This document shows, one piece after another, positions 8,303-18,917 of a stretch of 22,611 nucleotides of DNA. Position 1 is the stretch's first letter. Every line of letters starts with the position of its first letter. The stretch comes from a virus. The notes below the pieces were generated by a model. The model ran no database searches and was not told where the DNA came from. It saw only the letters and a list, made by a program, of their open reading frames with translations. The stretch lies in the IMG/VR virus record IMGVR_UViG_3300044237_003605, positions 1 to 22,611 of that record; one strand, given 5' to 3'. The position numbers and the translations under genes are program-made.

Positions 8303-9421
8303 ATGGCTAGAAATCGAGTAATTTATCAATCAGAAGCGTTATTCGTGTCCGATGATGCGAGTCAAACCGCAGCAAACAAACACGAACAACTACAAAGAGT
8401 TCAGTCCGCGAACTACTCTTTTAACATTTCACGTCAAGATGTAAATCAGTTCGGGCAACTCTCTAGAATTGATTCTCTTGTTTTAGAAGCGCCAACAGTT
8501 TCTGTTGACTTTTCTTATTATTTAGGTGGCGGATTCAATGAAGCTGCGTTAGGTTTCTTTACAGGAGATCTTACGAAAGGTTTTGCATCTGGCCACATGA
8601 CAGCATCATCTGGTAAAAATTTATTTATCACTACAGCTGATGAAGGCTCTGACGCAAAAGACAATAAAACAGAAGGTGGTACACAACCAGTTATTGGCAT
8701 CGGTAACGCTTATCTATCAGACTATACTGTTGACGGTTCAGTTGGATCACTTCCAACTGTTTCAGTAAGCATGGAAGCTGCAAATATCGCTTCTACAGTT
8801 GTAGCTTCTGGTGATTCAAATGGTTATTCTGGTGTTATTAATCCAGCAGTTGATCAATCAGACGGATCTAAAAAGACAGCAGCTATATCACTTCCATCCG
8901 CTAATACAGGTCAAGGAAGCATTACAGCATTGCGTCCAGGCGATATCACCGTTTCTTTTGGCACCGCAGCATCCGATGCTGAAGATGGTCCAATCGTAGA
9001 CATTAGCGGTGATGCAGATGGAACACATATTCAAAGCGTTTCAATTAATTTAGGTTTAAGCAGAAGCCCACTTGAAAGACTTGGTTCAAGATTCCCGTTT
9101 GCAAGAACAGTGGATTTCCCAGTTCAAGCTACAATGAATGTTTCAGCTATTATAAATGAAATCACAACTGCTAATTTAGCAGATATGTTAGATAGTGCAA
9201 ATTTATTTGATCTTACAGTTGACTTTAATGAAGCTGGCACAAGTGATAAAGCTTGTACATTTAAATTGGCAAATGCAACACTTGATTCAGAATCAATTAG
9301 CTCAAGTATAGGTTCTAACAAAACAGTTGATTTAACATTTACATGTTCTATTGGCGGTCCAGAAGATGCTACTAATAATATATTCTTTTCTGGAAGTGAT
9401 TCACACGTCCCTTTCGCATAG
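8303..9421 (+). CDS. Major tail tube protein (zero-frame product)
   Basis: This 372-residue beta-rich protein starts MARNRVIYQSEALFVS. It reads as two related halves. Residues 36-162 contain NYSFNISRQDVNQFGQL and later NAYLSDYTVDGSVGS with VSVSMEAAN. Residues 246-351 contain SINLGLSRSPLERLGSRFPF, then NATLDSESISSSIGS with VDLTFTCSIG. The insert between the halves is Ser/Gly/Asp-rich. Two tandem tube-type beta domains in one chain match the large tube proteins of some long-tailed phages. Codon use looks adapted for high expression. The gene ends TCC CTT TCG CAT AG in the raw order, which contains the heptamer CCCTTTC and opens into a -1 frame, so a longer form is likely. The tail structural role is well supported by repeats and context. 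The exact tube label is inference. Confidence 0.75.
   Translation: MARNRVIYQSEALFVSDDASQTAANKHEQLQRVQSANYSFNISRQDVNQFGQLSRIDSLVLEAPTVSVDFSYYLGGGFNEAALGFFTGDLTKGFASGHMTASSGKNLFITTADEGSDAKDNKTEGGTQPVIGIGNAYLSDYTVDGSVGSLPTVSVSMEAANIASTVVASGDSNGYSGVINPAVDQSDGSKKTAAISLPSANTGQGSITALRPGDITVSFGTAASDAEDGPIVDISGDADGTHIQSVSINLGLSRSPLERLGSRFPFARTVDFPVQATMNVSAIINEITTANLADMLDSANLFDLTVDFNEAGTSDKACTFKLANATLDSESISSSIGSNKTVDLTFTCSIGGPEDATNNIFFSGSDSHVPFA
9409..9415 (+). promoter_or_regulatory. Candidate -1 ribosomal frameshift slippery site CCCTTTC
   Basis: CCCTTTC has the X-XXY-YYZ form in the correct phase: zero-frame codons are GTC CCT TTC GCA TAG, and slipping back one base re-pairs on CCC and TTT. The zero-frame stop is 4 bases downstream (9419-9421). 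The -1 frame then runs open to 9838. The previous stop in that frame is at 9397-9399, so the overlap is usable only from this spot, and the frame has no ATG, GTG or TTG before 9472. Confidence 0.6.
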
Positions 9422-9449
9422 GAGTTTATAGTTTTTCAGATCGGACTAC

Positions 9450-9474
9450 CACGACCGTCAGTGGGGCGGTCGTG
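9450..9474 (+). other. Strong GC-rich RNA hairpin after the tail tube stop
   Basis: CACGACCG (9450-9457) pairs perfectly with CGGTCGTG (9467-9474) around a 9-base loop. A possible outer stem is ATCGGA (9440-9445) with TCCGAT (9496-9501). This is one of the most GC-rich spots in an AT-rich genome. It is not followed by a T-run on either strand, so an intrinsic terminator is unlikely. A frameshift stimulator, or masking of the GTG at 9472, is a better reading. It begins 34 bases after the slippery heptamer, which is farther than usual for simple stimulators. Confidence 0.55.
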
Positions 9475-9840
9475 CCTTTAAGCTCCTTCAGCTCCTCCGA
9501 TATGTCCATATATCCACTGAAAAGGATAGCTGGTACTAGTATTGCGACTGTAACTCAAATAATTAATGGAACATTTGCCCCAACCAAAATGGGTGAATTT
9601 AGTCCAAATGACGGACCACTTGTTTTTATTACTGCGGATGGCGATGATTCCTGGGAAATGGATCCTCCGTATGATAATTTGCGTGGATTGTCTCAAAGCT
9701 CTTCACAACCTGGTTCATCTACAGCAAGCCAAAATGGTATTGCATATTTCTTTAGGGCTTATGATATTGATGAATCGAGTTTAATTACATTCGATGGGAA
9801 TTTAAACGCTTTGTATAGAGTAGATACTCAATCAGAATAA
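9472..9840 (+). CDS. C-terminal extension of the tail tube protein via -1 frameshift (or separate small protein)
   Basis: The first canonical start in this frame is the GTG at 9472, giving 122 residues. An ATG at 9502 gives 112. The GTG lies inside the right arm of a stable hairpin, and neither start has a good ribosome site. Upstream of it the frame is open back to 9400 and reads like protein (VYSFSDRTTTTVSGAVVPLS), which supports entry from the tube gene by slippage at 9409-9415. That would add 141 residues after Phe371, giving a 512-residue product from 8303 to 9840. The domain contains SIYPLKRIAGTSIATVTQ, FITADGDDSWEMDPPYDNLRG and a Ser/Gln-rich loop, so it is acidic and beta-like. Other phages add C-terminal domains to a fraction of tail tube subunits by frameshifting, where they decorate the tail surface. 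I do not recognise this domain. Confidence 0.65.
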   Translation: MPLSSFSSSDMSIYPLKRIAGTSIATVTQIINGTFAPTKMGEFSPNDGPLVFITADGDDSWEMDPPYDNLRGLSQSSSQPGSSTASQNGIAYFFRAYDIDESSLITFDGNLNALYRVDTQSE

Positions 9841-17066: not shown

Positions 17067-18917
17067 CTACAGAAACATTGGTGTGAATGTAGAATTTGAT
17101 TCTGCCGGCATATCCATCATATCGTAATATATGTTCATACCCCAGTTACCTAGTACTAAAGCGGAATAAGAGTCTTTTCTGGGTCTATCGGCTCCCTTTT
17201 GCCTTTTTAAATTACTAGGTAAATCAAAGTTTTGATTACCTCCAGCAGATGTTGTAACTTGTACAAGTGCACATTCTGCTTTTGTTAAGTCTAACATATC
17301 TTTCTGATGTTCTATAAACTCAATCATTTTGGCGCCAATATTTTTTTCATCTTCATATTTTGAAAACTTTAGCTCTTTTATTGGTATTCTTTTAGCTTTT
17401 TGTATTGAATAATTATCGTCCATAGCAGAGGCTGCAAAATAAATTTTCTTTCTATCGAAAGATGTTTGCAACATTTCGTTTGCTGTTCTTATCCAAGATG
17501 ATGTAGGTTTTCTTAAATTACATATAACCCTTTCATTTAAATTATAGCTTCTTCTAGCTTGTTTTAAATCTTGATGATAGTTTTGAGGGTTATTAAAATC
17601 AGCTTCGAAACAACCTATATTTATCTTTTCTTTCTTAAATATATCGCTTTCATTACAAGAATTAATAAATTGAACACCACCATTATAGTCTCCTGCAATC
17701 ATAATTACGTTAAAGTGGTCTAATAAATACTTAAAATAAATTATATGCTTTTTTAAGTTGGTTCCTGGTAAAGCGTAACTATGCACAATTACCCCCTTCT
17801 TTTGTTCTGGCAACAACTTAATTACTTGTATAGCAAAATCATCAGATGTTTCAGATTCAGACCACGATGGGTCAAAAGCTAATATGTATTCAGCTCCTGG
17901 CTCACCAGCTACTTCTACACAAGGGGATTCTCCATCAACGATTGTACAATCTGCCATTTTGCTTATTTTAAAATAACCAGCACTATCATCTGTAAACTGA
18001 GCGTTAAATTCCCTGTCTATTTGAGATTGACTCATAGAACCTTTAGCTTGTGTGATCAAGTTTTCGTCATATAAAGCTTTGGGTGCGGCGTCATAAGAAA
18101 ACTGCATAATACATCTTCTACCTTGATTTTTAGCACCTGGATTGAAAATCATATTCTCGTATGTTTGATATAACTTGTATAAATACTCAAACTTGTAACA
18201 TGCAGATGACAATCCAATCATTTTATTGCTTGGCCATTCTGTTCTTTCTTCTTCTGTCATTTTGCCCGCTTTAATCATTTGATCTTCAGCGTTTTTAATT
18301 TTTTGTCTTTCTGTTGGGTTTTCTACAACAGCCAAGAACGGCATGATCACTTCGTTGTAAATTTTCTCTGGCATCAAAAGTAACTCATCCACAATAATTC
18401 TTTGGAAACGAAAACCACGAAGCTTTTCACCATCACCCAAAGGTAAAGCTGTTATACGACTCTTGCCAATCTGCATAGACCATTCGTCATTCGATTTGGT
18501 TACCTTACCGATGCATTGTTGAAATAGTTCCGCTTTACTGTCTTGTGCTATATCCTCTATCTTTCGGAATATCATTTTAGACTGACGAAATGACTTAGAT
18601 ATAATACCAATATGTACTCCTTGGTTTAACATAGCGTCTAACAGCGCAAAAATGCCCGTAGAAAAGGATTTTGACATACCACGAGACCATATGCCCAAAA
18701 AGTAATCATTCTCCATCATAGCCTTTACAGCCATATGTTGAAATGGAAATAATTCTATACCAGTTAAAAGTTCTGTTGTGAATGTTATGTTTTCTTTTAA
18801 AAATTTGTACAACCAATACTTCGCCTTGTTGTCTTCAAGGTATCCCTCAAGTTCTAAAACTTGTTCATTGACGTTTTCCCTTTGTAGGGGTTTTTGATTA
18901 CCTGCTTCCCAAGACAT
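17067..18917 (-). CDS. terL: Large terminase subunit (ATPase and nuclease)
   Basis: This 616-residue protein has the two-domain TerL layout. The ATPase domain shows the adenine motif FPFQ (57-60), a deviant Walker A loop WSRGMSKSF (77-85, Lys83), Walker B RIIVDE (Asp177, Glu178) and the coupling motif IGLSSACY (234-241). The RNase H-like nuclease domain shows FDPSWS (Asp349) and AGDYNGG (Asp410), and a late MDD that may supply the third acidic residue. TerL pumps DNA through the portal and cuts the concatemer. The Walker A has Ser instead of Gly just before the lysine, a known type of deviation in phage terminases but worth noting. The gene overlaps the ERCC4 nuclease gene by 20 bases and is followed by the portal gene. 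Confidence 0.93.
   Translation of the reverse strand: MSWEAGNQKPLQRENVNEQVLELEGYLEDNKAKYWLYKFLKENITFTTELLTGIELFPFQHMAVKAMMENDYFLGIWSRGMSKSFSTGIFALLDAMLNQGVHIGIISKSFRQSKMIFRKIEDIAQDSKAELFQQCIGKVTKSNDEWSMQIGKSRITALPLGDGEKLRGFRFQRIIVDELLLMPEKIYNEVIMPFLAVVENPTERQKIKNAEDQMIKAGKMTEEERTEWPSNKMIGLSSACYKFEYLYKLYQTYENMIFNPGAKNQGRRCIMQFSYDAAPKALYDENLITQAKGSMSQSQIDREFNAQFTDDSAGYFKISKMADCTIVDGESPCVEVAGEPGAEYILAFDPSWSESETSDDFAIQVIKLLPEQKKGVIVHSYALPGTNLKKHIIYFKYLLDHFNVIMIAGDYNGGVQFINSCNESDIFKKEKINIGCFEADFNNPQNYHQDLKQARRSYNLNERVICNLRKPTSSWIRTANEMLQTSFDRKKIYFAASAMDDNYSIQKAKRIPIKELKFSKYEDEKNIGAKMIEFIEHQKDMLDLTKAECALVQVTTSAGGNQNFDLPSNLKRQKGADRPRKDSYSALVLGNWGMNIYYDMMDMPAESNSTFTPMFL

Follow-up and report, generated by a model that had tools for sequence, protein, structure and literature searches.

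Probable expression of the open −1 frame at the end of a tail tube gene

How might a long open −1 frame at the 3′ end of a phage tail tube gene be expressed when its first part holds no start codon? The question arises in the window, i.e., the whole stretch of DNA analyzed, a 22.6-kb virus record (22,611 nt). The tube gene, an open reading frame at positions 8303 to 9421 of the plus strand, specifies a 372-residue short form and ends on the TAG at 9419 to 9421. The −1 frame is open from 9400 through 9837, stops at 9838 to 9840 and, as an initial annotation made from the sequence had claimed, lacks any ATG, GTG, or TTG before the GTG at 9472; the next candidate start is the ATG at 9502. The best explanation, with a probability of roughly 0.87, is a −1 frameshift at CCCTTTC, by which some of the tube subunits would gain a domain of 141 residues.

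Searches of Pfam and PHROG with the tube protein returned no family match. An AlphaFold model built from a 46-sequence alignment (pLDDT, 80) matched in Foldseek the T5 pb6 tube, the SH-Ab15497 major tail protein, and the P74-26 tube, with E values down to 1.5e-10. Judged by this predicted structure, the gene at 8303 to 9421 encodes a duplicated-fold (T5 pb6-like) tail tube protein, which bears out the identity first assigned to it. The tubes of relatives end at the same place as the short form of the window. The locus would thus combine an apparently complete short form with a longer form encoded at its end, here in the −1 frame, which is the arrangement of SPP1/936-type tubes.

The tube frame ends ...GTC CCT TTC GCA TAG. 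The heptamer C_CCT_TTC (9409 to 9415, plus strand) lies in X_XXY_YYZ phase with this frame, 3 nt 5′ of the stop, and a slip of −1 would re-pair it as CCC_TTT. The overlap that permits a shift spans 7 codons (9400 to 9421), and CCCTTTC is the sole X_XXY_YYZ site inside it. In the AT-rich genome of the window, chance alone would place about 0.11 in-phase heptamers, whatever their kind, in 7 codons, and those of the CCC/GGG type are rare (6 per 5788 codons). The extension read after the shift (9415 to 9840, plus strand) consists of 141 codons (RIGVYSFSDR...VDTQSE) plus TAA, and the fused form would have 371 + 141 = 512 residues. The phase of the heptamer, its distance from the stop and the length of the long form all agree with what had been proposed.

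Conservation of the site and the extension in one relative

Relatives of the tube were collected as 80 plus a further 80 IMG/VR loci, some on the same contigs, which amount to about 133 distinct tubes. After the stop codon of most of these genes comes an intrinsic terminator or another gene, and no long −1 frame is attached. The −1 extension occurs in 2 of the approximately 133, the window and the locus L081 (contig IMGVR_UViG_3300044299_004048, found with the extension protein as the query); it is thus uncommon in the family, which corrects the first reading. The nearest tube relatives, L094 and L095 (67%), are without it. Neither the tube nor the extension had a match in cultured phages by tblastn, and bacterial and archaeal genomes gave no match either. 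Further IMG/VR searches for relatives of the extension, by alignment, with L081 as the query and by exact DNA matching, returned the L081 contig alone. Nine other contigs carrying TAGGAGTTTATAGTTTTTC are unrelated; eight encode GVYSFS within ordinary reading frames and one within a short frame, and they were taken as chance occurrences.

The tubes of L081 and the window are 52% identical, within the range of about 50 to 67% seen among related records, and their extensions are 49% identical over 138 residues, starting at the first residue after the stop. Homologous loci had been named as a check on the frameshift, and this one extension-bearing relative retains the heptamer, the stop, and the −1 frame: it is identical to the window at CCCTTTC, the alanine codon, the TAG, and the next 16 bases. 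Over the 1.5 kb of tube plus extension, the longest exact DNA matches between both phages measure 31 nt, at the block of the heptamer and the 5′ arm described below, and 17 nt (9475 to 9491), at the block of the 3′ arm. A different gene follows in L081, yet the extension is still attached to the tube.

Some features of these records stand apart from the extension. The terminases of four related records share 85 to 90% identity with that of the window; that of the L081 record is 90% identical to the window protein (17067 to 18917) versus 52% for the tube, suggesting unusually fast divergence or exchange of the tube. In L028, L023, and L025, each phage has two tandem tube genes.

The residues encoded at 9421 to 9501, before any possible start, are conserved between the window and L081 (GVYSFSDR...AVVPLSSFSSSD). 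In the −1 frame, 16 codons of this block are the same in both phages, 5 differ synonymously, and 5 differ by a replacement; one gap takes up a whole codon, and stops are absent. All of the replacements lie in the loop bounded by 9445 and 9465. The other two frames each show 1 synonymous and 9 replacement differences, with stops. The residues before both candidate starts are therefore selected as protein, in line with the earlier impression that 9415 to 9471 encode real protein: the amino acids from 9415 to 9501 are conserved with synonymous changes, no stop or frame break interrupts the −1 frame of L081 over the block, and from the shift site on, this frame is open and its protein sequence is conserved. 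A test for fewer synonymous changes over the whole block gave P = 0.07; since the extension is known from two sequences only, codon and covariation tests are weak in power. Comparison of the two sequences shows protein-level constraint on the −1 frame 5′ of any start codon and conservation of both the site and the arms. Taken with the retained heptamer and stop, this protein-level conservation supports the −1 frameshift initially proposed.

Predicted RNA structure downstream of the heptamer

The predicted folds of both phages place a stem, S1, 4 nt 3′ of the heptamer, a spacer at the short end of the usual range. Its 5′ arm (AGGAGUUUAUAG, 9420 to 9431, invariant in L081) and its 3′ arm (CUUUAAGCUCCU, 9476 to 9487, within the 17-nt exact match) pair as 9420 to 9428 with 9479 to 9487, plus 9430 and 9431 with 9476 and 9477. 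As an isolated duplex, S1 has an energy of −11.2 kcal/mol. Its arms lie within the two longest exact matches, and the 5 synonymous changes of the block are all outside these arms. S1 encloses the inner hairpin at 9450 to 9474 (arms 9450 to 9459 and 9465 to 9474), which the initial annotation had already noticed and which forms 10 pairs in the predicted fold. In L081, the hairpin differs in sequence and keeps 9 of 9 consensus pairs, two of them through compensatory changes on both sides; in a shuffle control on these two sequences, 144 of 500 shuffles attained the observed pair counts, which is not significant.

The hairpin had been offered as the downstream element of the shift, but it lies 35 nt away, and the main RNA stimulator is instead probably the previously unlisted stem 9420 to 9431/9476 to 9487. 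The complementarity between 9440 to 9445 (AUCGGA, S2) and 9496 to 9501 (UCCGAU, S2′), earlier read as a possible outer stem, is real; these arms cross the main helix and would form a pseudoknot rather than an enclosing stem. Five of the six S2 pairs are invariant in L081, and pairs that do not vary prove nothing about a pseudoknot. The fold energy is better than that of codon-matched sequences for the same peptide (P of 0.001 for the window and 0.03 for L081) and of codon permutations (P of about 0.02 in both phages). Rfam searches at the gathering score with the window and six loci assigned no family. As evidence for a stimulator drawn from two sequences, folding and covariation are supportive, not conclusive.

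Alternative routes to the extension

A separate downstream gene could start at the ATG at 9502, or at the GTG at 9472, either independently of a Shine-Dalgarno sequence or through ribosomes that reinitiate once past the tube stop. The ATG is indeed kept in L081 (at 4079) and genes of this phage mostly lack Shine-Dalgarno sequences, but the roughly 20 residues that the −1 frame encodes before it are conserved, with some codons changed synonymously, and the GTG is a GTT in L081. Moreover, both candidates have structured leaders rich in GC or C, whereas all 20 listed genes of the phage have AT-rich leaders: A+T in the 20 nt before the two candidate starts amounts to 25% and 40%, versus 60 to 95% for those genes. 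A downstream gene with its own conserved start had been named beforehand as a challenge to frameshifting; what was found is a conserved ATG with a leader unlike the starts of this phage and an unconserved GTG. Conserved residues upstream, a GTG not shared by L081, and leaders poor in A+T therefore make internal initiation unlikely, and readthrough of the TAG likewise. In the window, most gene starts (e.g., 8303, 7409, and 12265) have AT-rich leaders without Shine-Dalgarno sequences, which suggests a Bacteroidota-like host.

Readthrough at 9419 would have an open frame 0 of 19 codons in the window and 18 in L081, up to a shared TAA; it is nonetheless close to negligible, as 9 of 10 codon differences in that frame replace the residue and another gene of the window that ends in TAG, the terminase gene, shows no sign of TAG recoding. 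Reinitiation at the AUA at 9418 to 9420, which would yield a free extension protein, draws on an AUA/UAG overlap (AUAG) conserved in both phages, but it leaves the conserved in-phase heptamer unexplained and demands AUA, a very poor start codon; we give it hardly any credence. The −1 frame might also be an unexpressed remnant or an inserted cassette, with the hairpin as a former transcription terminator. Intrinsic terminators are common at that position among relatives, and tube ends are apparently swapped within the family; against this, the frame has stayed open and under constraint in two phages whose proteins are about 50% identical, the hairpin has no T-run behind it, and the terminator scan gave no plus-strand match, so that this origin is highly improbable. 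Transcriptional slippage was ruled out because no long homopolymer precedes the stop.

The extension and variable tube ends

The extension had no significant match in Pfam, PHROG, or the PDB, and no sequence match placed it among Ig-like/FN3 phage decoration domains. Its model reached a pLDDT of 36, i.e., no confident structure, which made fold comparison impossible. In-frame C-terminal additions of 75 to 106 residues occur at the same point in 5 of the approximately 133 tubes; the tube end therefore seems to be an attachment place for extra domains. Four of these tubes share a domain without an assigned family (L137:2240–2557, L149:4117–4425, L139:4117–4422, and L130:4117–4422), and the fifth (L161:4165–4392, on the same contig as L027) carries an Ig-like domain (Bact_surface_Ig-like in Pfam, E value of 4e-13). 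No profile similarity was found between the extension and the addition of the L137-type tubes.

In L094 (4078; SGANS-stop), the tube reading frame ends with GGAGCGAAYAGCTAAG, a sequence that recurs 12 to 17 nt past the tube stop in L001:1174, L005:5403, L027:6407, and L030:6164. In these four loci, it is likely a relic of the former gene terminus, left behind when the C terminus was replaced. Such relics suggest that tube ends are exchanged by recombination in this family.

Proposed mechanism and comparison with known systems

We infer a −1 shift with the following course. Most ribosomes would halt at the TAG at 9419 and release the 372-residue tube subunit. In a minority, tRNA-Pro and tRNA-Phe on CCU UUC would move one base backward and re-pair with CCC UUU, aided by the stem 9420 to 9431/9476 to 9487 with its inner hairpin, perhaps closed as a pseudoknot, 4 nt downstream. 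Shifted ribosomes would read the −1 frame to 9837 and produce the 512-residue form. The additional 141 residues would make a domain that some of the subunits probably carry on the outside of the tail tube, as in SPP1 and the lactococcal 936 phages; by analogy with these, its most likely role is to face outward and bind the host or a surface.

Automatic gene calling would skip such a decoration domain or mis-start it as a 122- or 112-residue orphan. The tube family includes members with a domain added in frame, two that would add one by frameshift, and a majority with none, which makes it a natural series for asking what benefit a controlled decoration stoichiometry brings.

In SPP1 (gp17.1/gp17.1*), the last codons of the tube gene are the shift site, and a minority product with a C-terminal domain enters the tail at 3:1; a +1 shift at CCC_UAA appends 87 residues that include an FN3 domain (PMC8718954, PMC6316719). 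The window resembles SPP1 in its terminal shift site and in a C-terminal domain on a predicted minority form, and differs in the −1 direction at C_CCU_UUC, the downstream stem, the 141 residues of an unmatched domain, and the T5-type duplicated fold. MTP-TpeX of the lactococcal 936 phages arises by a +1 shift at CCC_UAG, and its extension resembles the host-binding BppA carbohydrate-binding module (PMC4759559, PMC6669499). Both are frameshift-added extensions on a tail tube protein, whereas that of the window matches nothing in the databases searched. The major virion proteins of the Listeria phages A118, A500, and PSA (tsh) are also frameshifted, by +1 at CCC_UGA (PMC5009743). They share frameshifting with the window, but in the +1 direction, and no sequence relation was seen. 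Lactobacillus phage A2 reportedly makes use of −1 frameshifting in two instances that involve major virion proteins; by its title, the paper on the later instance concerns −1 frameshifting on a second major virion protein. T5 pb6 bears an additional C-terminal Ig-like domain outside the tube as part of a single product, and the review that describes it mentions no frameshift (PMC8718954). Its tube fold is like that of the window, where the extra domain lies instead in the −1 frame.

Frameshift-extended tubes are therefore already known from SPP1, 936, and Listeria phages; what would be new here is a −1 shift on a T5-type tube, unlike those tail cases in direction and signal, and an unmatched domain. 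A literature search found no mention of CCCTTTC as a phage shift site; the slip site, RNA structure, and domain appear undescribed, as the initial annotation had presumed for the heptamer and the domain. We propose only tentatively, at somewhat less than even confidence, that C_CCU_UUC with the stem/inner-hairpin pseudoknot 4 nt on is an undescribed −1 signal, operating in a host without Shine-Dalgarno starts, that equips some T5-type tube subunits with a decoration domain of a wholly new kind. The locus would extend frameshift-made tail decorations from SPP1-type tubes, where shifts are mostly +1, to a −1 shift on the T5-type duplicated tube of an uncultured phage group.
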